Assembly: GCA_028686425.1 (NCBI GenBank)
Contig: JAQUBZ010000004.1
Location: 1-64,000, forward strand
DNA: 64,000 nt
Origin: Bacteroidales bacterium
GTDB lineage: Bacteria; Bacteroidota; Bacteroidia; Bacteroidales; UBA932
Reading direction: 5' to 3'
Each line of letters starts with the position of its first letter. The first letter of the stretch is position 1. Position numbers and translations under genes: made by a program. This document shows positions 1-11,338 of the stretch, piece after piece. The notes below the pieces were generated by a model. That model was not told the origin of the DNA. It worked only from the letters and a program-made list of their open reading frames with translations, and made no database searches.

Positions 1-113
1 TATGTAGAAAGGGAATAGTTGGGGTCTTGGCTTAAGCATGCATAGTATGCTTGGAAATGTGGGTAGTACTCGGACTGTTGGTCCTTGAGTGTAAACGAAT
101 TTAGCGGATCCAT
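1..113 (-). CDS. N-terminal fragment of an unidentified gene, cut by the window edge
   Basis: An open frame starts at ATG 113-111 and runs leftward to base 1 without a stop, giving 37 residues that begin MDPLNSFTLKDQQSEYYPHF. The start lies about 13 bases downstream of the start point expected from a well-formed Bacteroidota promoter (133-163), which is the main reason to treat it as real. The short stretch with Tyr-Tyr and an aromatic-rich helix reminds me of the N-terminal helix-turn-helix pieces of Bacteroidales insertion-sequence helper proteins, but this is only a resemblance. Function is not assigned. Confidence 0.5.
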   Translation of the reverse strand, partial: MDPLNSFTLKDQQSEYYPHFQAYYACLSQDPNYSLST

Positions 114-132
114 TGTCTTTCTGTTTTTAGCG

Positions 133-163
133 CAAAGGTATTTATATCTATATCCTTTGTCAA
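133..163 (-). promoter_or_regulatory. Bacteroidota-type promoter for the edge gene
   Basis: On the minus strand TTGA (163-160) is followed after 19 bases by TACCTTTG (140-133), an exact match to the TAnnTTTG -7 element of the Bacteroidota primary sigma factor. The implied start point is near base 126, giving a leader of about 13 bases to the ATG at 113. Confidence 0.65.
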
Positions 164-196
164 GACGTCATCGCGGAGACGCTTACGTCAGCGATT

Positions 197-236
197 TCAC
201 CCCGTGGCAAACAGACCCTTGAAAGCCACGGGGTGA
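197..236. repeat. Perfect 12-bp inverted repeat
   Basis: TCACCCCGTGGC (197-208) and its exact reverse complement GCCACGGGGTGA (225-236) flank a 16-base loop. There is no T-run beside it, so it is not a standard intrinsic terminator. It sits upstream of the edge gene's promoter and could be an operator, a recombination relic or a structured RNA element. Nothing else in the window matches it by eye. Confidence 0.6.
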
Positions 237-280
237 GCCATAATTAGTCCGACTTCTTACATCAGAATCATACAAAAACA

Positions 281-323
281 CCAGATCTTGACAGCGACAC
301 GGACACTGAGGTCTGGAGTTTTT
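281..323 (+). terminator. Weak terminator-like hairpin
   Basis: CCAGATCT (281-288) can pair with AGGTCTGG (309-316) with one G-T pair across a 20-base loop, and five T follow at 319-323. It would end any transcript entering from the left before the BRO-like gene at 392. The loop is long and the stem short, so this is tentative. Confidence 0.3.
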
Positions 324-391
324 GAATAATCATAATGTCATATTAAGTGAAATAATGCTTATTTTTACAAGTAATTTAATAGTGGAAAAAG

Positions 392-1243
392 ATGAGAAGC
401 GACAAAATCAAATTATTTGAGAACAGAAAAGTCCGCACAGAATGGAATGTGGATAGTGAAGAGTGGTATTTTTCAGTAGTGGACATAGTCTCAGTGCTGA
501 CAGATAGTGATTATGATACTGCCAGAAAGTATTGGAAGGTGCTGAAGGGCAGACTAAATGACGAAGGCAGTGAACTGGTAACAAATTGTTACCAGTTGAA
601 AATGGTAGCTGCTGATGGAAAGTTGAGATCTACAGATGTCTTTGATACTAAAGGTGTTTTACGCCTTGTCCAGTCCATTCCATCTCCCAAAGCAGAGCCG
701 TTTAAGTTATGGTTGGCGCAGGTGGGAAGTGAACGTCTGGACGAAATTGCCGATCCGGAAAAAGCGATTTTACGTGGAGCAGACTTTTATCGTGCAAAAG
801 GTTATACAGAAGGCTGGATTAATCAGAGGCTGCAAACCATCGAGATGCGTAAAGAACTTACAGATGAGTGGAAAGCCAGAGGCATCGACAAAGAAAAAGA
901 TTACGCCATTTTAACTAATGAAATGACAAAGGCTTGGAGCAGCCTTTCTGTTAAGGAATATAAGGAATTGAAAAATCTCAAAAAGGAAAACCTGCGTGAT
1001 AATATGACGAATCTTGAGTTAGTACTTAATATGCTTGCAGAAGTATCAACCACTGCCATTTCGAAGCAGGAACAACCAGAGACATTCTCAAATAGTCTGC
1101 ACATTGCCAAACGTGGTGGAAAAATAGCCAAAAATGCAAGAACCGATATTGAAAATCAGCTTAGACATTCAATCATTTCCACACTTAATGCAAAAGACAA
1201 ACCGGCATTAGAGATAAAGTCAACGGATGAAAAATCAGAGTAA
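392..1243 (+). CDS. BRO-family / phage antirepressor-like protein (DinD-like)
   Basis: A 283-residue protein with a BRO N-terminal domain over about residues 5-110. The diagnostic patches are KVRTEW followed by EEWYFSVVDIVSVLTDS and then a KYWKVLKGRL stretch. Related domains occur in phage antirepressors and in proteins annotated as DNA-damage-inducible protein D; they are thought to bind DNA. The C-terminal half (about 120-283) is charged and helical, with no motif I can name. It stands alone, between an edge-cut gene and an IS relic, in a stretch that looks accessory. No clear promoter precedes it. Being a phage or mobile-element remnant or a freestanding regulator are both possible; its target is unknown. 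Confidence 0.75.
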   Translation: MRSDKIKLFENRKVRTEWNVDSEEWYFSVVDIVSVLTDSDYDTARKYWKVLKGRLNDEGSELVTNCYQLKMVAADGKLRSTDVFDTKGVLRLVQSIPSPKAEPFKLWLAQVGSERLDEIADPEKAILRGADFYRAKGYTEGWINQRLQTIEMRKELTDEWKARGIDKEKDYAILTNEMTKAWSSLSVKEYKELKNLKKENLRDNMTNLELVLNMLAEVSTTAISKQEQPETFSNSLHIAKRGGKIAKNARTDIENQLRHSIISTLNAKDKPALEIKSTDEKSE

Positions 1244-1317
1244 TATAATAATATAGTACATATCGCATAGTACGCTGTATAACGTTGGATGAGTAAGTGG
1301 CTTTTTCTACCAAAAAA

Positions 1318-1391
1318 CGGGGAATTAACTTTGTAAAAATTCGGGGAAACAAAGTTACCGATTACACAGGGAAACAAAGTTACCGATTACA
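1318..1391. mobile_element. Relic of an IS21-family-like terminus with tandem end repeats
   Basis: A 23-bp direct repeat occurs at 1344-1366 and 1369-1391, beginning GGGAAACAAAGTTACC and ending GATTACA, with a 25-bp period. A related, partly inverted patch with GGGGAATTAACTTTG lies at 1317-1331. Read outward, each copy ends in CA (TG on the other strand). Multiple short terminal repeats and 5'-TG...CA-3' tips are typical of IS21-family ends. No istA or istB coding sequence is present: the BRO-like gene ends only about 75 bases to the left. I read this as a solo or truncated IS end; the family assignment is inference. Confidence 0.45.
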
Positions 1392-1455
1392 TTTAGTGGG
1401 GAAATCACATTAATCCGGGATAGAGGGTGTAGCGAATACCAAGAAAAGTGATTTT

Positions 1456-1486
1456 TTTGGTATGTTGAGTTTTTTTCTTATCTTGC
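1456..1486 (+). promoter_or_regulatory. Candidate promoter for the peptide/lipoprotein unit
   Basis: TTTG (1456-1459) is followed after 19 bases by TATCTTGC (1479-1486), which resembles TAnnTTTG but lacks one T of the TTTG core. If used, transcription starts near 1493, giving a leader of about 220 bases before the small peptide gene at 1716. Confidence 0.35.
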
Positions 1487-1507
1487 GAAGAGTAACGAAT
1501 ATAACCT

Positions 1508-1561
1508 ATGAAAAGCAGTAACTTGCCGAATATCAAAAAAATAATGGGGGGGGGCGATTAA
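1508..1561 (+). CDS. Possible 17-codon leader ORF carrying a nine-G tract
   Basis: ATG at 1508 opens the frame MKSSNLPNIKKIMGGGD and stops at TAA 1559-1561. The three Gly codons come from a run of nine G (1546-1554). Gain of one G would remove this stop and extend the frame to the TAA at 1702-1704, about 65 codons, ending six bases before the first ATG (1710) of the next small gene. Homopolymer tracts of this length are classic slippage sites. Whether this frame is translated at all is unknown, and no strong ribosome site is visible. Confidence 0.3.
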   Translation: MKSSNLPNIKKIMGGGD

Positions 1562-1571
1562 ACCCTGAGAC

Positions 1572-1608
1572 TGTTCCGCAGGTAATCTCTGCAAGGGGTG
1601 TCGGAACA
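1572..1608 (+). ncRNA. Structured leader element (nested hairpin)
   Basis: TGTTCCG (1572-1578) pairs exactly with CGGAACA (1602-1608). Inside it GCAG (1578-1581) can pair with CTGC (1589-1592). The element lies in the presumed 5' leader of the peptide/lipoprotein unit. I do not recognise it as a known riboswitch class. Confidence 0.3.
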
Positions 1609-1643
1609 TCAAATTTACAGACCGAATCATCAGGCAATTGTGA

Positions 1644-1670
1644 CACGCGCCACTGCAGGCGTGTGTTTTT
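1644..1670 (+). terminator. Terminator-like hairpin in the lipoprotein leader
   Basis: CACGCGCC (1644-1651) pairs with GGCGTGTG (1658-1665), with one G-T pair, around a six-base loop, followed by five T (1666-1670). It stands before, not after, the genes at 1716 and 1890. It could be an attenuator for them or the terminator of a short leader RNA. Confidence 0.45.
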
Positions 1671-1715
1671 GTGTGCCATGCTCCGACTATTATCGGAAAA
1701 CTAAAACAAATGCTT

Positions 1716-1856
1716 ATGAATAAGGAAGAGAAGACAGTCTATACGTCCCCTGTAATGGAGATGGTGGAATTGGAAAATGAACAAGGCTTCGCTGTCTCAT
1801 TTTCGGGTGGCGGTACATCGCCGTTTGAGAATGACGGAGAGGGCAGTTGGAATTAA
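1716..1856 (+). CDS. 46-residue acidic peptide of the type that precedes Bacteroidales surface lipoproteins
   Basis: A short gene starting at ATG 1716 (an alternative in-frame ATG lies at 1710). It begins MNKEEKTVYTSPVMEMVELE and ends in a Gly/Asp/Asn-rich acidic tail with SGGGTSPFE and a final GEGSWN. Small proteins with a YxSPxxEVxELE-like start and a glycine-rich acidic tail recur in Bacteroidales genomes and are usually hypothetical. It lacks a signal peptide. The lipoprotein gene begins 33 bases downstream, so the two are probably co-transcribed. Its function is unknown; a secreted-peptide precursor and a chaperone-like partner are both untested ideas. Confidence 0.55.
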   Translation: MNKEEKTVYTSPVMEMVELENEQGFAVSFSGGGTSPFENDGEGSWN

Positions 1857-1889
1857 CGACACGGAGTATAAACATTAAAAGAAAAAGAT

Positions 1890-3965
1890 ATGAAAAAAGT
1901 ATTATACAATATCTCCGCAGCATTATTCGCTGCCGCAATGCTCTCTGCCGCTGCATCCTGCAGCAAACAGGAGACACCGAACCTCCCGGAAGAGCCAAAG
2001 GCGGAGACCATTACCCTCAGCGCTTCGATGGAGCTTCCAGACTCCGAGACGAAGACCTCGCTCGACGGCCTGAGTGTGAAATGGAGTGATGGGGACAGGA
2101 TAAGCGTCTTCTTCGGAAACAACACTACTAATAATGAATTTACCCTTAGCAGCGGCGACGGGGAGACGTCCGGCAGCTTTACCGGCGAAGCATCCCAAGC
2201 GAGCGAGACACTCTATGCTGTCTATCCCTATAAATCGACTACGAGCATAAGCGGGAACACAGTCAGCCTCACTTTGCCTGCCGTCCAGACCTACAAGGCC
2301 GGAGGCTTCGCGGACGGCATGAACCCTGCTGTAGCCAGTACCTATGATTGTGGAAACCTTGAATTCAAGAACATCTGCGGTATATTGAAACTTGACTTGA
2401 AGCTCCCGGGCTCGGATGATCCTACTGTTGCGCTACCTCTTGTAGAAGTAAAACTGCCAATCCAAAAGATAGTCATCTACAGCCATACCGATAAACTCAG
2501 CGGAGAGGGTACAGTCAGAGATGTCTTGGTTCTATTTACTGAAGAAGACACGGTGATCCAATATTTTGTTAAGAAATTAGAAATGTCTCCCACAGCCTCC
2601 AATACCGTCACACTTGATGTTGGCGGTGCTACTATATCTAATTCTTCAGTAAAGTCCTTTTATATAGTGCTTCCGCCCACTACCGGCAAATTATATGTCA
2701 CAGTGTTTGGAGGCACCAGCAGTACCAGTACGATGACCAAAAGCACTGTTTCGACCATCAGCCGAAACAAGATTCGTCCGATGCCGACACTCGACTTTGT
2801 TGGAGTAGCCGGTGTCAGCTTGAGTGCACAGGGAACTTCCAACTGCTACATAGTGAGCGAAGCGGGGAATTACAGCTTCGATGCTACTGTAATGGGCAAC
2901 GGAGCTGTCGGTATAATTTCAGGAGGAGGCTTTCCCACCACAGATGCCCATATAACTCCCGCTCCAGTCTCAGCCCAGATACTTTGGCAGGACAAAAGAA
3001 CCAGTCTCCAACCCCCATACACCTATCCGATTTCAGATGTCTCCCTTACCAGCGGCAGGGTTACATTCAAGGCCTCAGGAGTAAAAGGTAATGCTGTGAT
3101 AGCAGTCTATGACGGCCCGAATGGCACAGGAAACATCCTCTGGTCCTGGCATATCTGGTGTACCGACACTCCGGCTGAGCAGCCATACAAGAACCTTGCA
3201 GGCAAAGAGTTCAAACTTCTCGACCGTAACCTCGGAGCGACTGCGGCAACACCTATAGTAGGGCCTATAAATACGGAAACATTACCCACATACGGACTGT
3301 TATACCAGTGGGGCAGGAAAGACCCGTTCCCAGGGAGTGCGGGTGTCGCTTCGAATACAGAGAAGGAACTGAACAAGAGTGACGGAAGCACATATACAAT
3401 GAGCGATGAGGGATACATAGTGGCTACGGATACCGATAAGGGCACCATTGATAACACCATAGCGAATCCTGCCATTTTCTATTATGGTATAGAAGCTTCA
3501 AGTTACGATTGGCATTATGCAAGCAGAAATAATTACCTCTGGGGCAATCCGAGAGGATACGCAGCAGATTACACAGCATCCAAGTCCATCTACGATCCTT
3601 GCCCTCCGGGGTACATGGTGGCACCGAATGACACTTGGACGAGGTTCACATCCACAGGAAAAAATTCTTCACAAAGAAATGAATTTAATCTAAGTGGAAG
3701 TTTTGACAACGGTTGGACATTCCATACGACAGAATGGCAATCAGGTTCATCATCGTGGTATCCTGCTGCGGGCAATAGGGAATACATCAATGGTTCTCTG
3801 TCAGATTCAGGCTTCGGCGGCTACTGTTGGAGCAGCTCTCCCAGCTCTTCTGGGAGCTACAAAGCCGGTTATCTTATGTCCAGTTCGCTCTTCGTGCGTC
3901 CGCAGGATTACGACAATCGCGCTTATGGGCTTTCGGTTCGGTGTAGTTTAGTGGGTGGAAAATAG
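1890..3965 (+). CDS. Fimbrillin-like surface lipoprotein with a FISUMP/C-lectin-like C-terminal domain
   Basis: A 691-residue exported protein. Residues 1-24 form a lipoprotein signal ending SAAASC. Residues about 40-310 resemble the fimbrillin-A/Mfa-like fold of Bacteroidales pilins, with the SDGDRISVFF and YAVYPY patches typical of that family. The C-terminal third has the hallmarks of the FISUMP (Fibrobacter major paralogous) / C-type-lectin-like family: KLLDRNLGATAATP, YGLLYQWGRKDPFPG, IYDPCPPGYMV, CWSSSP and a closing GLSVRCSL. It is likely displayed on the cell surface, perhaps as a pilus-tip or adhesin-type protein. The gene is visibly richer in G and C than most neighbours, which suggests transfer. 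A stem-loop follows at 3982-4039. Binding partner unknown. Confidence 0.75.
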   Translation: MKKVLYNISAALFAAAMLSAAASCSKQETPNLPEEPKAETITLSASMELPDSETKTSLDGLSVKWSDGDRISVFFGNNTTNNEFTLSSGDGETSGSFTGEASQASETLYAVYPYKSTTSISGNTVSLTLPAVQTYKAGGFADGMNPAVASTYDCGNLEFKNICGILKLDLKLPGSDDPTVALPLVEVKLPIQKIVIYSHTDKLSGEGTVRDVLVLFTEEDTVIQYFVKKLEMSPTASNTVTLDVGGATISNSSVKSFYIVLPPTTGKLYVTVFGGTSSTSTMTKSTVSTISRNKIRPMPTLDFVGVAGVSLSAQGTSNCYIVSEAGNYSFDATVMGNGAVGIISGGGFPTTDAHITPAPVSAQILWQDKRTSLQPPYTYPISDVSLTSGRVTFKASGVKGNAVIAVYDGPNGTGNILWSWHIWCTDTPAEQPYKNLAGKEFKLLDRNLGATAATPIVGPINTETLPTYGLLYQWGRKDPFPGSAGVASNTEKELNKSDGSTYTMSDEGYIVATDTDKGTIDNTIANPAIFYYGIEASSYDWHYASRNNYLWGNPRGYAADYTASKSIYDPCPPGYMVAPNDTWTRFTSTGKNSSQRNEFNLSGSFDNGWTFHTTEWQSGSSSWYPAAGNREYINGSLSDSGFGGYCWSSSPSSSGSYKAGYLMSSSLFVRPQDYDNRAYGLSVRCSLVGGK
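3828..3944 (+). other. Candidate diversity-generating-retroelement variable region
   Basis: The last part of the lipoprotein, from TGG 3828 to TGT 3944, has an invariant-looking frame (WSSSP, AGYL, V-PQ, NRA-G, SVRC) filled with Tyr, Ser, Asp and Asn residues. Most of the filler codons end in C or T (TAC, TAT, TCC, AGT, GAT, GAC, AAT). That is the pattern left when adenines of AAY codons in a template repeat are mutated. No template repeat, Avd or reverse transcriptase is in this window, so the retroelement would have to be elsewhere in the genome. Confidence 0.4.
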
Positions 3966-3981
3966 TCTAATAATTTTTGAA

Positions 3982-4039
3982 CGCACCGGGTGCGCTCCTT
4001 ACAAACAGCTGTAGTCCGTCAAGGGTTGCAGCTGTTTGT
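3982..4039 (+). terminator. Double stem-loop after the lipoprotein gene
   Basis: CGCAC (3982-3986) pairs with GTGCG (3990-3994). A second, perfect 11-bp inverted repeat follows: ACAAACAGCTG (4001-4011) with CAGCTGTTTGT (4029-4039). Only a weak T stretch follows, so termination is probable but not canonical. Stem-loops just past the variable region are also a feature of some diversity-generating retroelements. Confidence 0.5.
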
Positions 4040-4135
4040 GTTTAGTGGCAGCCGCCAATTTAAATAAATGATTATAATACGCTTTATGTTTTGCGCAGAT
4101 ATTCTGTAAACTTTTACAACTTGGATATAAAGCTC

Positions 4136-4166
4136 TTGTGAAATCGACAAACTTTATATAAATTCG
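4136..4166 (+). promoter_or_regulatory. Candidate promoter for the acyltransferase gene
   Basis: TTGT (4136-4139), 19 bases, then TAAATTCG (4159-4166), one base off TAnnTTTG. The start point would be near 4173, 18 bases before the ATG at 4191. Confidence 0.4.
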
Positions 4167-4190
4167 CAGATTGTATATTGTAATTGGATA

Positions 4191-5375
4191 ATGGCTTTTT
4201 TGGACAAATTTACGCGAGCAACCAATTCGCAGAATTTCATTCCGGAGATAGACGGGTTTAGATTTTTTGCGATTATTACTGTTGTTTTGATGCATCTGAA
4301 TGTCGGATTTTGCAGAACAGCCGGATTGAATTACAAAGATGGCATGATGGTCATCTGCAGCCTTTCATGGTTCTTGAACAGGGGAGGATTGGGGGTTCAG
4401 GTATTTTTTTCGATCAGTGGATTTATCCTCAGCATGCCGTTTTTGAAGTACTATCTTCAACGGAACAATACTATTCTTGGCAACCATCTTATACCCAAGC
4501 CGAAATTAGGCAGTTACTATTTGCGAAGATTGACAAGGCTTGAACCTCCGTTTATAATCGCCATAACATTCTTTTTTATTGTGCATGTCGTATTAAAGGA
4601 GGTACCGATAAAAGAGTTGACACAACACTTCATAGCCACACTTACATATTTGCACTGTATTATTTATAATGCGTGGTCAACGATAAATCCTGTCACATGG
4701 AGTCTCGAGACAGAAATACAGTTTTATCTTCTTGCTCCGTTTATTTGCAAATGGATATTCCAAAAGAGCAGGAATCCGGCATCCATAATAGCTGTTCTCT
4801 CCGTAATAACATTGTTGGGAGCATATTATTTCAAAGATACATATCATGACTTGCATCTCTCTTTTTCTCTGCTTCAGCAATTGCCGTTTTTTCTGGTAGG
4901 AATATTGGTGGCGTACATTTATCTGACTAATAAATCATTTCTTGAAAAGAAAAGTGTGCTGTTTGATGTCATTGGATTGGGTTCTATGTTCCTCCTGTTT
5001 TATTTCTCATTCGGCTACTTTATTTCCGATGTGGGATTTATTTTGTTTTTGTTTCTGCTGTTTATTTCAGTATTCAAAGGCAGATTTATGAATATGGTAT
5101 TTACGAATAAGTTAATATATGTGATAGGCGGTATGTGTTATACTATTTATTTGTTGCATTATCCTTTCTTCTATCTGATATGCAATTACACCAAGCCGCT
5201 GATTATTTTCGACAGTTATGCTTTGAATTTCTGGATTCAGGCATTTGTGATACTGCCTCTGCTGCTGGTGGTCTGCGGATTATTCTACTATTTCATTGAG
5301 AAACCATGCATGGATAAAAACTGGCCTAAGAAGTTGTGGATGAAGATTTCCGGTTCAAGGTGTAAAAACAACTGA
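4191..5375 (+). CDS. Acyltransferase-3 family membrane protein
   Basis: A 394-residue multi-pass membrane protein of the OafA/acyltransferase-3 family. It opens with the conserved IDGFRFFAIITVVLMHLNV, whose His begins the catalytic region. It also has a GVQVFFSISGFILS segment, LRRLTRLEPP and a SLETEIQFYLLAPF motif, followed by about eight hydrophobic segments. Such enzymes O-acylate sugars of capsule, O-antigen or other glycans at the inner membrane using cytoplasmic acyl donors. It is a lone gene with its own candidate promoter and a shared terminator with the convergent thioredoxin gene. No glycan cluster is adjacent, so the substrate cannot be inferred. Confidence 0.85.
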   Translation: MAFLDKFTRATNSQNFIPEIDGFRFFAIITVVLMHLNVGFCRTAGLNYKDGMMVICSLSWFLNRGGLGVQVFFSISGFILSMPFLKYYLQRNNTILGNHLIPKPKLGSYYLRRLTRLEPPFIIAITFFFIVHVVLKEVPIKELTQHFIATLTYLHCIIYNAWSTINPVTWSLETEIQFYLLAPFICKWIFQKSRNPASIIAVLSVITLLGAYYFKDTYHDLHLSFSLLQQLPFFLVGILVAYIYLTNKSFLEKKSVLFDVIGLGSMFLLFYFSFGYFISDVGFILFLFLLFISVFKGRFMNMVFTNKLIYVIGGMCYTIYLLHYPFFYLICNYTKPLIIFDSYALNFWIQAFVILPLLLVVCGLFYYFIEKPCMDKNWPKKLWMKISGSRCKNN

Positions 5376-5390
5376 TATTTTTCAATGATA

Positions 5391-5429
5391 TACAAAGAGA
5401 GGCGATCTATCTGACCGCCTCTCTTTGTA
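5391..5429. terminator. Bidirectional intrinsic terminator
   Basis: A perfect 14-bp inverted repeat (5391-5404 with 5416-5429, arm TACAAAGAGAGGCG) with an 11-base loop lies between convergent genes, with A/T-rich tails on both sides. Confidence 0.85.
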
Positions 5430-5447
5430 AGTGTGATATATGGTAAA

Positions 5448-6545
5448 TTACATTACGTCAGCTACAGCTTTTTGTAAATCTTCTCCGCGAAGGTCTCTTT
5501 TAACAATTGTTCCATCAGGACCAAACAGGATGATGTGAGGGATTCCCAAAATGCCATAAACGTTGGTAGGAGTTTTGTCATCTCCGACAAAAATCTGATT
5601 CCATTTCATACCCATCTCTTCAATGGTCTTTCTGCTGTTGGTATTGTCACCATCCCATACGGCAACACCCAACACAACAAGTCCTTTCTTCGTATATTTA
5701 TCGTAAGCGGCTTTGATGTTCGGAATTTCCCTTTTGCAAGGTCCGCACCATGATGCCCAGAAATCAACGAGTACATATTTGCCTTTTCCTACGAAATCCG
5801 AAAGATTTACATCTTTTCCATCAGGAGTTTTTCCTGAAAAATCAATAAACATGCTTCCTTCGGCTGTTTTTTCTTTTGCAACCATTGATTCTCTGACAGA
5901 TTGGAAGTTTTTATCGTTTTTGATAAAATCGGCTCCTTTATCAAGAAATTCGTCAAGATTGGCAACGCTTTCAAAGTCATAGATGAGATATTGAAGTGAT
6001 AAGTGTCCTAACGCATTGGATGTATTGGCAAAGTAAGTTGCTTTCCAATAGTTGTTTAATTGTTCCTGTGTCTTTTCATAAATTTCATTGACAGCGTTGT
6101 CTGCTTCTTCCCCTTTAAGGGTTTCATTAAATTCTTTTATTTTAGCAGACATTATTTTACGAACGGAATCCTGATATGCCAGAATTGATGAATATTTTTC
6201 ATTGAGCGGAGTTCCGGAAACTTTTGAAGGTTCATTCAGATTGATGTTGATAGTGCCTTTTTCAGGGATAAACATCGCATAATTCATGTTTCTTATTTTT
6301 GCATCGGTGGCAAGTGAAATTCTTTTGATGGTGCTGTCGCTTGCAACGCCTGTGATTTCAAATGTACCGTCAATAATTTGAATTGTGTCCTTTTCATTTG
6401 TCAACCGGTCGGTCATTATGATTACAGCTCCGGGAGTTGTTGATAATGAGTCGGTAATGGTACCTTTAACGGTATAGGTGCTCTCTTTTTGAGTGCATGA
6501 CACTGCCATCAATATGGTGGCAAGTAAAATCAGATGTTTTTTCAT
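5448..6545 (-). CDS. TlpA-like thioredoxin lipoprotein with a DUF4369 N-terminus
   Basis: A 365-residue protein from ATG 6545; the frame extends 13 codons further upstream but the signal peptide starts here. MKKHLILLATILMAVSC is a lipoprotein signal with Cys at 17. The N-terminal half resembles DUF4369, a beta-rich domain found before thioredoxin domains in Bacteroidales. Residues about 230-365 form an AhpC/TSA/TlpA thioredoxin fold with the WASWCGPCKREIP active site and a cis-proline in GILGIPHI. It likely acts as a thiol-disulfide reductase on the periplasmic side of the envelope. The upstream region shares back-to-back promoters with the trp leader. Confidence 0.9.
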   Translation of the reverse strand: MKKHLILLATILMAVSCTQKESTYTVKGTITDSLSTTPGAVIIMTDRLTNEKDTIQIIDGTFEITGVASDSTIKRISLATDAKIRNMNYAMFIPEKGTININLNEPSKVSGTPLNEKYSSILAYQDSVRKIMSAKIKEFNETLKGEEADNAVNEIYEKTQEQLNNYWKATYFANTSNALGHLSLQYLIYDFESVANLDEFLDKGADFIKNDKNFQSVRESMVAKEKTAEGSMFIDFSGKTPDGKDVNLSDFVGKGKYVLVDFWASWCGPCKREIPNIKAAYDKYTKKGLVVLGVAVWDGDNTNSRKTIEEMGMKWNQIFVGDDKTPTNVYGILGIPHIILFGPDGTIVKRDLRGEDLQKAVADVM

Positions 6546-6568
6546 TGTATAAATATTTTGTAATTTTT

Positions 6569-6600
6569 TTTGCAAATCCGACACAAAGGTAATATATTTG
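6569..6600 (+). promoter_or_regulatory. Promoter of the trp leader and trpB
   Basis: TTTG (6569-6572), 20 bases, TATATTTG (6593-6600): both boxes match the Bacteroidota consensus. The start point would be near 6607, twelve bases before the leader-peptide ATG. The -7 element lies one base from that of the divergent thioredoxin gene. Confidence 0.7.
6584..6591 (-). promoter_or_regulatory. -7 element of the thioredoxin gene promoter
   Basis: TACCTTTG on the minus strand (6591-6584) matches TAnnTTTG exactly; the -33 box is not obvious. The start point would be near 6577, leaving a leader of about 32 bases to the ATG at 6545. Confidence 0.5.
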
Positions 6601-6618
6601 TTCTCATAATTATAAGAA

Positions 6619-6678
6619 ATGAATTTTATTGCTCAAAATAATTGGTGGTGGCGTCGCTTACAACTCATAAGGTCGTAA
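6619..6678 (+). CDS. trpL: trp operon leader peptide with three consecutive Trp codons
   Basis: ATG 6619 to TAA 6676-6678 encodes MNFIAQNNWWWRRLQLIRS. The TGG-TGG-TGG run (6643-6651) lies at the base of the first hairpin, and the stop codon lies in that hairpin's distal arm. This is the geometry of classical ribosome-mediated attenuation: a ribosome stalled for lack of charged Trp-tRNA would cover the first arm, while one reaching the stop would cover the second. The gene downstream is tryptophan synthase beta, which fits. The symbol is used by analogy with trpL of other bacteria. Confidence 0.85.
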   Translation: MNFIAQNNWWWRRLQLIRS

Positions 6679-6704
6679 GGAACGCAGCGCCGTGATTTTT
6701 TTTT
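6650..6704 (+). promoter_or_regulatory. Pause hairpin (1:2) of the trp attenuator
   Basis: Starting inside the last Trp codon, GGCG...CGCTTAC (6650-6661) pairs with GTAAG...CG...GCGCC (6675-6691) with small bulges. Nine T follow at 6696-6704, so the hairpin might also terminate. A candidate antiterminator is CGTAAGG (6674-6680) with CCTTGTCG (6718-6725), about seven pairs including a bulge; this alternative is weak by eye and needs folding. Confidence 0.6.
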
Positions 6705-6705
6705 G

Positions 6706-6755
6706 AAAAGGAACAGGCCTTGTCGCACTTGCGGCAGGGCCTGTTCCTTTTTTTT
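6706..6755 (+). terminator. Attenuator terminator upstream of trpB
   Basis: A perfect 14-bp stem (AAAAGGAACAGGCC at 6706-6719 with 6738-6751) is extended inside by TGTCGCA/TGCGGCA and followed by eight T (6748-6755). It is a strong intrinsic terminator that lies after a leader peptide and before a gene in the same direction, so it regulates rather than ends the operon. Confidence 0.85.
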
Positions 6756-6803
6756 GCGCTCCATCGGATTTTAGGAAATTATAAATTGTTAAATATTGAT
6801 AAG

Positions 6804-7991
6804 ATGAAAACTTACAGAACTTTTTTGGCTGATGAAAACGGCTGCTTTGGAAATTTCGGAGGAGCTTATATCCCCGAACAATTGAAAAAATGTATTGATG
6901 AACTTCGTGAAAACTACTATGATATGATCACAGCTCCTGATTTTCGGGAAGAATATGATAACTTGTTGCAAAACTACGTTGGAAGGCCGTCTCCACTCTA
7001 TTTTGCCAATAGACTTTCAGATAAATACAAATGCAGAATCTATCTGAAAAGGGAGGATTTGAACCATACGGGAGCACACAAAATCAACAACACAATAGGA
7101 CAGGTGCTGCTGGCCGGGCGAATGGGCAAAAAACGAATTATAGCAGAAACGGGGGCCGGACAGCATGGCTTGGCTACGGCCACGGTATGTGCATTGATGG
7201 GAATGGAGTGTACTATCTATATGGGCGAAATGGATATGCAAAGGCAGCAATTAAATGTTGAAAAGATGAAAATGCTCGGTGCTCAAGTGGTACCGGTAAA
7301 GAGTGGATCAGGAACCCTGACAAATGCCGTGGATGCCGCATTGCAGGATTGGTGTTCCAATGAAAAGGATACCTTTTATATAATAGGCTCGGCAGTAGGA
7401 CCTCATCCATATCCCGATATGGTGTCATATTTTCAGTCAGTGATAAGTCGTGAAATAAAATATCAATTATTGGAGCAGGAAGGACGTGATTATCCCGATT
7501 ATCTGATAGCCTGTGTGGGGGGAGGAAGCAATGCATCAGGGACAATGTTTCACTATATTGACGAACCGAGAACCAAGATAGTGCTTGCAGAGGCTGCGGG
7601 CAAAGGTTTGCATAGCGGATATAGCGCCGCTACAGTAAATGAGGGCGTCATAGGCATTCTGCATGGATCTAAAAGTCTTGTCATGCAGGATGAAAACGGC
7701 GAATTGAAAGAGGCCTATTCTATTTCAGCAGGGCTTGATTACCCAGGGGTCGGGCCAATGATTGCCAACTTATCCATATCGGGGAAGATAGATGTTCAGG
7801 CAGTTACGGATGAAGAGGCTGTTGCCGCCGCATTTGAACTCACAAAAATGGAGGGGATTATACCTGCCTTGGAAAGTTCCCACGCTCTCGGGCTATTGCC
7901 CAAATTGAATGCTGAAACGAATGACGTAGTTGTTATTACAGTTTCCGGCAGAGGTGACAAAGATATGGTCACCTATACAAATTATTTATGA
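6804..7991 (+). CDS. trpB: Tryptophan synthase beta subunit
   Basis: 395 residues from ATG 6804; the open frame extends upstream through the terminator but translation there is unlikely. The PLP lysine lies in HTGAHKINN, with NGCFGNFGGAYIPE at the start, AETGAGQHG, and the phosphate-binding GGGSNASG. It ends with a TVSGRGDKD motif. It condenses indole and serine to tryptophan. No trpA or other trp gene follows: the next gene starts a different operon with its own promoter. It may therefore scavenge indole or pair with a TrpA encoded elsewhere. Regulation is by the attenuator at 6619-6755. Confidence 0.95.
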   Translation: MKTYRTFLADENGCFGNFGGAYIPEQLKKCIDELRENYYDMITAPDFREEYDNLLQNYVGRPSPLYFANRLSDKYKCRIYLKREDLNHTGAHKINNTIGQVLLAGRMGKKRIIAETGAGQHGLATATVCALMGMECTIYMGEMDMQRQQLNVEKMKMLGAQVVPVKSGSGTLTNAVDAALQDWCSNEKDTFYIIGSAVGPHPYPDMVSYFQSVISREIKYQLLEQEGRDYPDYLIACVGGGSNASGTMFHYIDEPRTKIVLAEAAGKGLHSGYSAATVNEGVIGILHGSKSLVMQDENGELKEAYSISAGLDYPGVGPMIANLSISGKIDVQAVTDEEAVAAAFELTKMEGIIPALESSHALGLLPKLNAETNDVVVITVSGRGDKDMVTYTNYL

Positions 7992-8016
7992 AAATCGTAA
8001 ATAGTTTGTAAATTTG
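7985..8016 (+). promoter_or_regulatory. Promoter of the sensor/ABC operon
   Basis: TTTA (7985-7988), 20 bases, TAAATTTG (8009-8016). The -7 element is exact. The start point would be near 8023, only 14 bases before the ATG at 8037, with no room for a leader structure. The -33 box overlaps the end of trpB. Confidence 0.65.
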
Positions 8017-8036
8017 TTGAAACTATTAATTGCAAT

Positions 8037-9008
8037 ATGAAAAACTTTTTTGCAAATCTTGTGTTGCTGACCATTTTATCTTGTATTCCGATGGGGGCAC
8101 AAGATAAATTGCACAAAATCACCTTCTCTCCGTCATGGATGCCGCAAGCACAATTTGCCGGTTACTACGTGGCATTGGAAAAGGGATTTTACAGAGATGC
8201 CGGTTTGGATGTAGAGATAATTATTCCTTCCAATTCCAGCCCCTCTGTTTTGAAATTAAAAACAGGTGAAGTCGATATAATCTCTACTCAGTTAGTTCAG
8301 GCAATTGCGGCTAAAGATGCGGGGACAGATCTTGTCAATATATGTCAGACAAGCCAGGTCAACGGTCTTGTGATAGTTGCTCAGCCTCAATATACTTCGC
8401 TTGAAGATTTGATCGGGAAGAGGGTTGCATCATGGAAAAGCGGATTTTCGGAACTTGCCTACTGTATGGCTAACGATAACGGGCACAATGTGGAGTGGAT
8501 TGACATACCGTCGGGAATTAATTATTTTATCAGTGGAGCGGTTGACGGTATTCTGACGATGTACTATAATGAATATTTTCAAGTTATGAATTGTGGTAAA
8601 AAAGTGACCGAACAGAATGTTTTTCACCTCTCTGAGTATGGATATAATGTCCCTGAAGATGGATTATATTGTCTTAGAAGCGCTTATTTAAATCATGAAA
8701 AGGAGATGAATGCCTTTGCACAAGCCTCGAAGCGAGGGTGGGAGTATGCACGTGAACATACGGATGAAACAATAGATATTGTGATTAAAACCATGAAGAT
8801 ACACAATATTGCAAGCAGCCCTTCTCATCAGAAGTGGATGCTTGCAAAAATACTTGAATTGCAGATTAACAAAGAGACCGGACAGGCTTCTTATACATTA
8901 GATCCCAAAACTTTCAAATTTGCAGTGGATGTTCTGAAAAAGAATAATCTGATTAAAAATGATGTCACATACGACAGTTTCGTATCACCTGAAACACGTG
9001 TAAAATGA
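8037..9008 (+). CDS. NMT1/THI5-like exported solute-binding protein
   Basis: 323 residues. The N-terminus MKNFFANLVLLTILSCIPMGAQ is an export signal; Cys16 could be lipidated or cleavage could follow GA. The body matches the NMT1/THI5/SsuA-like periplasmic binding family: ITFSPSWMPQAQFAGYYVAL with a KGFYRDAGLDVEI stretch, and VDIISTQLVQAIAAKDAG. Members bind thiamine-pyrimidine precursors, sulfonates, nitrate or bicarbonate, so the ligand is unclear here. No matching permease of that family is next door. Instead the gene overlaps by four bases (ATGA) with a Cache-domain sensor, so it may present a ligand to the sensor rather than to a transporter. That role is inference. Confidence 0.8.
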   Translation: MKNFFANLVLLTILSCIPMGAQDKLHKITFSPSWMPQAQFAGYYVALEKGFYRDAGLDVEIIIPSNSSPSVLKLKTGEVDIISTQLVQAIAAKDAGTDLVNICQTSQVNGLVIVAQPQYTSLEDLIGKRVASWKSGFSELAYCMANDNGHNVEWIDIPSGINYFISGAVDGILTMYYNEYFQVMNCGKKVTEQNVFHLSEYGYNVPEDGLYCLRSAYLNHEKEMNAFAQASKRGWEYAREHTDETIDIVIKTMKIHNIASSPSHQKWMLAKILELQINKETGQASYTLDPKTFKFAVDVLKKNNLIKNDVTYDSFVSPETRVK

Positions 9009-11338
9009 AACTATTTTATAATATAAAGCACTCATTTTCAGCACGTTTCAGTCTGTATATTCTGATACTTGTGGGAGTTGTATTTTTAGCCACTCTTTCC
9101 ATAACATATATCAACTCTTACAGAACCATTGAGAATGCGGCTCGTGAAAATGCCGAAATTACCATGGAGAAAACGACTCTTGAAATTGAGAGTTTGCTTT
9201 CAGGACTCAGCAAAACTGTGGATAATGTTGCAAGAATACTTCAAAAGGAGCCTTTTCATCCCGATTCCCTCTATTCGATAGTTAGAGAAATCGTTGAGAA
9301 CAATAGTGATGTCATTGGAAGCGCAATCGCTTTTGAACCGGACCATTTCAGGCAGAAAGGGTATTATTATTCTCCATACGCATATCGTGAAGGCGACAAG
9401 GTATCGGTCAAGCAGCTTGGCACAGTCGATTATGACTATTTTACAAAAGAATGGTATCAGATACCTAAACTGCTTGATAGAAATTATTGGACCGAACCCT
9501 ATTATGATGAAGGTGGAGGAGAAGCCGTGATGTGCACGTATTCATCTATAATGAAGGATGAAAATGGCAATTTTATGGGGGTTGTAACGGTTGATATTTC
9601 ATTGGACTGGCTTAGCAATCTTGTTCAGTCTATCAAGCCGTATCCCAATTCATATTCATTTCTTATCGGTTGCGGAGGCACTTATATCGTACATCGTCAG
9701 AAGAACAGGATATTAAATGAATCCATATTTTCAATCTCATACGAAGAGCCTGACCCGTCTATTTCTCAAAGGATAGGGCAGAAGATGGTTGATGGCGAGA
9801 CAGGAGAGGAAATAGTTATGAATGATGATTATCTTGCATATATCTTTTATGCTCCTATCGAGAATATAGGATGGTCATTAGCTATGGTGTGCCCTGCTGA
9901 TGATATTTTTGCAGAGCTGACACGGACATCAAGAACTATCGGACTCTACTCTATTGGCGGACTTTTGTTAATTTTTGTATTTTGCCTTATTGCAATCCGA
10001 AGAGTTACCTCTCCTCTGAAATCTTTTGCCGTTTCTGCAAAGAAGATTGCGCATGGAGATTTCAACGTGGCATTGCCTGTAATCAAATCTGAAGATGAGA
10101 TGATGGAGCTGCGTAATTCGTTTGACTATCTGCAGAAAGAGCTTGTAAGATATATGGATTCTCTTCAAAATACGGCTTCGGCCAAAGAGAAGATAGAGAG
10201 TGAGTTGCGAATAGCAAGGCAAATACAGCTCGGCATGATTCCTAAGACATTCCCTGCATTTCCGACCCGTACAGATATGGATATTTATGCAATATTGAAT
10301 CCGGCCAAAGAGGTCGGGGGAGATTTGTACGACTTCTATATCGATGGAGACCGCCTGCTTTTCGTCATTGGCGATGTTTCGGGAAAGGGGGTTCCTGCCT
10401 CTTTGCTGATGGCTGTTACCAGAAGTATGTTCCGTTCGGCTTCGGCTTATCTGCACAGCCCTGCAGAGATAGTTTCCGCTTTGAGCGCTGCCATAGTGGA
10501 TAGTAATGACTCCAATATGTTTGTAACATTGTTCCTTGGAATACTTAACCTTAAAACAGGCGAAATTAATTACTGCAATGCAGGACACAATCCTCCTGTG
10601 TTGTTAAGTAGCGGCAATGTCGGATTTTTCCCTGTCGAGCCTAATATCCCTCTCGGACTTTTTGAGGGATTTGAGTACAAGGAGCAAAATGGGGTTATTC
10701 CAAACGGAGCGACTTTGTTTTGCTACACTGACGGTTTGACAGAAGCCGAAAGTGAAACAAAAGAGCTGTACGGGGAAGATCGTCTGTTGAAAGTATTGGA
10801 GGATAAAGAGTTATATACCTCTAAAAATCAGATAAATGCAGTGTATGAAGATGTTCGCGCTCACGTGGGGAATGCCGATCAATCTGATGATCTTACTATG
10901 CTTTCAATCACTGTTTTTTATAAGACAATTTCTCGTAAAATAGTTATTACCAATGATTTATCGGAAATAGAAACTCTCAAATCCACGGTTGATTCATTCT
11001 GCGAAGAGGTGAAAATATCTCCGGAGCTCTCAATGCAGCTGCAGCTGGTGTTGGAAGAAGCTGTCACCAATGTGATACTATATGCCTATCCCGACAAAAA
11101 GGGAGATATTGAACTTGAATTATCTCAATGTAACGGACATTTGACGTTTGTTCTCAGTGACAGGGGCATTCCTTATAATCCGTTGGAAAAGGAGGATCCG
11201 GATGTCACTCTTGCTGCCGAAGAGCGACCAATAGGTGGTCTGGGAATATATTTTATCAAACAACTTATGGATGAAGTGGGGTACAATAGAAATGACGGGA
11301 AGAATATTTTTACAATGAAGAAAATACAAAACAATTAA
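9005..11338 (+). CDS. Membrane sensor: dCache-HAMP-PP2C phosphatase (RsbU-like) fused to a HATPase (RsbW-like)
   Basis: 777 residues. TM1 is about 17-36 and TM2 about 311-331, with a periplasmic double-Cache-like sensor between (TDWY-like WYQIPKLL, WTEPYYDEG, GVVTVDISLDWL). HAMP is about 331-385. A SpoIIE/PP2C phosphatase spans about 400-640 with metal motifs VGGDLYDFY, GDVSGKG, YTDGLTE and DQSDDLT. A GHKL kinase of the RsbW/SpoIIAB type spans about 645-775 with an intact N-box LEEAVTN (683-689), DRGIP (719-723) and GGLGIYFIKQL (744-754). The two activities would dephosphorylate and phosphorylate a STAS protein, which is encoded next. Both on one chain makes it a candidate bifunctional switch driven by an external ligand. 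Confidence 0.9.
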   Translation: MKLFYNIKHSFSARFSLYILILVGVVFLATLSITYINSYRTIENAARENAEITMEKTTLEIESLLSGLSKTVDNVARILQKEPFHPDSLYSIVREIVENNSDVIGSAIAFEPDHFRQKGYYYSPYAYREGDKVSVKQLGTVDYDYFTKEWYQIPKLLDRNYWTEPYYDEGGGEAVMCTYSSIMKDENGNFMGVVTVDISLDWLSNLVQSIKPYPNSYSFLIGCGGTYIVHRQKNRILNESIFSISYEEPDPSISQRIGQKMVDGETGEEIVMNDDYLAYIFYAPIENIGWSLAMVCPADDIFAELTRTSRTIGLYSIGGLLLIFVFCLIAIRRVTSPLKSFAVSAKKIAHGDFNVALPVIKSEDEMMELRNSFDYLQKELVRYMDSLQNTASAKEKIESELRIARQIQLGMIPKTFPAFPTRTDMDIYAILNPAKEVGGDLYDFYIDGDRLLFVIGDVSGKGVPASLLMAVTRSMFRSASAYLHSPAEIVSALSAAIVDSNDSNMFVTLFLGILNLKTGEINYCNAGHNPPVLLSSGNVGFFPVEPNIPLGLFEGFEYKEQNGVIPNGATLFCYTDGLTEAESETKELYGEDRLLKVLEDKELYTSKNQINAVYEDVRAHVGNADQSDDLTMLSITVFYKTISRKIVITNDLSEIETLKSTVDSFCEEVKISPELSMQLQLVLEEAVTNVILYAYPDKKGDIELELSQCNGHLTFVLSDRGIPYNPLEKEDPDVTLAAEERPIGGLGIYFIKQLMDEVGYNRNDGKNIFTMKKIQNN

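Follow-up and report, generated by a model that had tools for sequence, protein, structure and literature searches.

A Bacteroidales lipoprotein with a predicted lectin-fold C-terminus homologous to the variable regions of diversity-generating retroelements

Lectin-like protein ends that are rich in Tyr, Ser, Asp and Asn invite the question of whether they are diversified by a diversity-generating retroelement (DGR), that is, by reverse transcription of a template repeat (TR) and adenine-directed mutation of the variable region (VR). We address this question for a gene at positions 1890..3965 (+ strand) of a 64,000-nucleotide stretch of a Bacteroidales genome, referred to here as the window. 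The original prediction, made from the letters of the window, held that the C-terminus of this gene resembles a DGR variable region. The genome assembly comprises 2.22 Mb in 51 contigs with a completeness of 92%, and the first base of the window is also the start of the contig, so that the gene lies 1.9 kb from a contig end.

The open reading frame encodes 691 amino acids and resembles a lipoprotein precursor (MKKVLYN...SAAASC, with the Cys at codon 24); its N-terminus, MKKVLYNISAALFAAAMLSAAASC, resembles a lipoprotein signal, the signal and the lipobox-like motif having been read by eye. Residues 64-285 (2079..2744, + strand) match PF13149 (Mfa_like_1) weakly, with E = 1e-4 and 22.9 bits against a curated cut-off of 27 bits, which suggests a fimbrillin-like (Mfa-like) region. 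It is followed by a predicted Ig-like beta-sandwich domain (2835..3167, + strand; residues 16-126 of the structural model, whose whole-model PDB matches are mostly Ig-like domains) and by a predicted C-type-lectin-fold domain of a divergent Fib_succ_major/Lcl type (3168..3962, + strand). A terminator-like inverted repeat, ACAAACAGCTG/CAGCTGTTTGT, can be read directly from the sequence past the stop codon (4001..4039, + strand).

The stretch that had drawn attention (3828..3944, + strand) lies at the C-terminus of this frame and translates in frame to WSSSPSSSGSYKAGYLMSSSLFVRPQDYDNRAYGLSVRC. Its lectin-like frame is real and its composition is unusual: Tyr, Ser, Asp and Asn account for 46% of the residues compared to 27% in the remainder of the gene, a content near the top among 107 aligned homologue tails. 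When the gene is aligned with homologue tails and 11 translated templates, the counterpart of the variable regions in DGR-bearing homologues (PAAGNR...SVRC; 3762..3944, + strand) begins upstream of 3828, at about 3762. The original prediction also pointed to codons ending mostly in C or T, as expected from adenine-directed mutation of AAY codons. Codons of Tyr, Asp and Asn end in C or T without exception, and such endings are consequently uninformative for these amino acids because no other ending is possible. Given the amino acids of 3828-3944 and the codon usage of the gene itself, 24.2 ± 2.3 (standard deviation) codons would be expected to end in C or T (NNY), compared to 28 of 39 seen (P = 0.075); among the Ser codons, an informative class, 9 of 11 are NNY compared to 75% in the remainder of the gene. 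The C/T-ending codons match what the amino acids predict, the NNY excess is not significant, and the codon argument for adenine-directed mutation is not confirmed.

The structure search with a joint model of the Ig-like and lectin parts was swamped by the Ig part, hence the lectin domain was modelled separately: the C-terminal 271 residues, folded alone with 70 homologues, yielded a predicted model with pLDDT 92. A structural aligner placed this model closest, among the matches given here, to Treponema denticola TvpA (2y3c; Z 6.6 over 173 residues). The C-terminal domain of Legionella Lcl (8q4e; Z 5.6 over 99 residues), Bordetella phage Mtd (1yu3; Z 4.8 over 125 residues) and the BACOVA_04982 fimbrial protein (4eps; Z 4.7 over 132 residues) also matched, as did snake and mammalian lectins, mostly at Z 4-5. 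Nearly all of the aligned structures have C-type-lectin-type folds; the lowest is endostatin, whose fold we take to be likewise of lectin-like type. Foldseek gave weak matches with the lectin domain alone, and searches of Pfam, NCBIfam, PHROGs and PDB sequences returned no direct match for the domain. The window protein matches neither PF09603 (Fib_succ_major) nor PF07603 (Lcl_C), families of the same predicted fold, whereas 22 of the 71 aligned homologues match PF09603 and 1 of 71 matches PF07603. The agreement among the aligned structures, together with the homology, leads us to assign a predicted C-type-lectin fold to the domain, and the alignment and the model together place a variable-type C-terminal region within it. 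TvpA and Mtd, which share this fold, are known DGR targets with about 9% sequence identity to the window protein, whose resemblance to them lies in the predicted fold; the Bacteroides surface protein 4eps has a similar C-terminal fold and 11% identity.

Homologues of the lipoprotein are abundant in Bacteroidales. We compared the fetched loci with themselves for repeats whose mismatches fall at A, and found textbook TR/VR pairs with an adjoining reverse transcriptase (RT) and a C-terminal variable region in 9 of 12 homologues on viral contigs, as well as A-specific TR/VR pairs adjoining an RT in four genomes of the same genus. A bacterial homologue, L080, which is 38% identical in the C-terminal half, likewise has a textbook pair with the variable region at the C-terminus: a VR at 6775-6972, a TR at 8020-8217 and an RT frame at 8135-9289. 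It stands here for the DGR-diversified Fib_succ_major lipoproteins of gut Bacteroidales (SRS014459.31157, PMC4159848), which have the same C-terminal lectin-fold domain and an alignable variable-region frame. The reported DGR target SRS014459.31157 (Mfa2 + Fib_succ_major; PMC4159848) is, like the window protein, a lipoprotein with a fimbrillin-type N-terminus, and lectin folds have been described for annotated variable regions in general (PMC8144416). We therefore agree with the original prediction that the fold family is one used by known DGR targets, since the model matches TvpA, Lcl and Mtd and since A-specific TR/VR pairs in the corresponding C-terminal region mark homologues of the domain as DGR targets. 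The resemblance of the gene's C-terminus to a DGR variable region is genuine homology. Between target and template, two of the DGR-bearing loci contain an accessory gene (L080:7029-7802 and L043:1790-2488) with a weak match, under the curated cut-off, to MutS domain I; no Avd-like model matched either gene.

The window gene differs from these lipoproteins in having neither RT nor template and in having AAY-compatible codons at 14 rather than 17 of 17 positions. Neither an RT nor a template copy was found in the 64-kb window, as the original prediction had already stated. The check that it proposed, a search of the whole genome for an RT and a near-copy of 3828-3944, likewise found neither within the 92%-complete assembly, the first of the outcomes it had named as speaking against it. 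In the 2.22 Mb there is no RVT_1 (PF00078) match and no match to the DGR RT of L080; among 40 genomes of the same genus, 12 have an RVT_1 match and 5 have a DGR-type RT. BLASTN found no DNA near-copy of the region in the assembly, the longest similarity elsewhere being a 16-bp match. A degenerate pattern in which every template base is either A or the same as in the variable region, with up to 3 mismatches allowed, matched only the gene itself when applied to 3840-3929 and 3888-3944 in the assembly. No useful inverted repeat indicative of an invertible promoter was seen upstream of the gene, and Rfam gave no match in positions 1-8000 of the window. The closest matches to the gene in the same genus are 38-43% identical.

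A more specific comparison uses the 17 alignment columns at which at least 7 of the 11 translated templates encode Asn. All nine proven variable regions that were scored have NNY codons at 17 of 17 of these columns. The window gene has 14 of 17, the three AAY-incompatible codons being Glu GAA, Lys AAA and Met ATG. Of the 95 homologues in which no DGR was detected, 32 score at least as high, and some of the 95 may have a distant template of the kind found in Alistipes muris (below). With no RT, no template, 3 of 17 codons incompatible with AAY and no codon bias beyond composition, the claim that 3828-3944 itself was mutated at adenines is not supported. Bacteroides ihuae has four paralogues in tandem whose C-termini are VR-like (L064:108-9728); they score 17, 15, 14 and 11 of 17, and BLASTN found no template in that genome for the 17/17 copy. 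All-NNY codons were consequently dropped as a diagnostic of DGRs, because this copy attains the full score with no template found. Among homologues without a detected DGR, variation is greatest at the very columns that DGRs mutate (mean entropy 3.5 compared to 2.4 bits, p = 8e-7), as expected if these columns form a ligand-binding face.

The reading that we favor, with a probability of about 0.8, is that the gene is an ordinary paralogue whose fold family DGRs sometimes use, a slowly diverging, adhesin-like surface lipoprotein. The genome contains at least eight further paralogous frames, some of them near one another on contigs C9 and C34, and the gene would be one of about nine. Its fimbrillin-like N-terminus and Ig-like spacer would present a C-type-lectin-fold domain at the cell surface, where the Tyr/Ser/Asp-rich C-terminus would serve as the binding face; surface display and ligand binding are thus suggested, the predicted fold being what points to binding and to a ligand. 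After duplication, the C-terminus would have diverged through normal mutation and selection, and it would look like a variable region because DGRs took up the same fold in related lineages. Counting against this reading are the assembly, 92% complete and in 51 contigs, the contig start 1.9 kb upstream, the high Tyr/Ser/Asp/Asn content, and branch support below 95 in the tree described next.

A present or recent role of the gene as a DGR target, with its RT and template lying in the unassembled 8% or having been lost to leave an orphan variable protein, is in our judgment unlikely. For the version in which a since-lost DGR once acted on the gene or on a recent ancestor, leaving a variable region that now decays, one can cite the occurrence of DGRs among same-genus genomes and on homologues of the domain, the 14/17 score, which exceeds the mean of 0.69 over the other paralogues in the genome, and Treponema denticola isolates that lack core DGR parts and still have target genes (PMC4891356). 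However, in a quick tree built from the domain outside the tail, the window gene and a 50%-identical paralogue fall in a 26-row branch with no DGR-bearing or all-NNY member (SH-aLRT 93, under 95), the NNY excess over composition is insignificant, and Bacteroides ihuae deprives the codon pattern of diagnostic value. A lost DGR is accordingly possible but less likely than the ordinary-paralogue reading, and we regard it as rather improbable. An active DGR whose RT and template sit in the unassembled part, or in a prophage missing from the assembly, could draw on the incomplete assembly, on the nearby contig end and on the example of Alistipes muris, where a template may be far from its target. 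Nevertheless, the downstream side, where these parts usually lie, is complete and holds acyltransferase-like, thioredoxin-like and trpB-like genes, no RT occurs in 2.22 Mb, and GAA, AAA and ATG stand at positions encoded AAY by proven templates; we consider this very improbable. Least probable of all is diversification via gene conversion from silent cassettes or paralogues. Several paralogues are available, some near each other on C9 and C34, but the assembly holds no donor, because DNA similarity to the region ends at the 16-bp match.

A DGR is not diagnosed by a C-terminus that is lectin-like and rich in Tyr, Ser and Asp and whose codons end in C or T, because the same columns also vary in homologues for which no DGR was detected. 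The comparison further links DGR targets of bacteria and viral contigs with a large group of Bacteroidales lipoproteins, most of it Pfam-dark.

A stronger finding than the window gene, and one that deserves a study of its own, lies outside the window in Alistipes muris DSM 112343 (L056 genome; L155, L156-L167), which has one RVT_1 match and one target gene. Between the two are eight 192-nt stop-free template-like cassettes in tandem, and twelve further dispersed copies share their borders, giving about 20 cassettes of near-constant length, all stop-free in one frame. Over 144 nt, the variable region differs from the remote cassette L157:526-717 at 12 positions, all of them at template A and none elsewhere, while its first ~40 nt (5' end) fit another cassette better. 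This suggests a candidate DGR with a template library for a single target. Multiple TR variants are known from T. denticola isolates and human carriers; a template library within a single genome was not found in a short, non-exhaustive literature search.

Directly upstream of the lipoprotein gene in the window is a small frame, MLMNKEEKTVYTSPVMEMVELENEQGFAVSFSGGG...SWN (1710-1856, + strand). Short peptides like its product precede several homologues (for example L091, L069, L083 and L058) and constitute an unnamed conserved peptide family. Further upstream, two exact direct copies of GGGAAACAAAGTTACCGATTACA at a spacing of 25 nt (1344-1391) are perhaps the end of an insertion sequence, and positions 392-1243 (+ strand) encode a BRO-N domain protein (PF02498, E = 1.6e-9) with weak similarity to DNA damage-inducible protein D.
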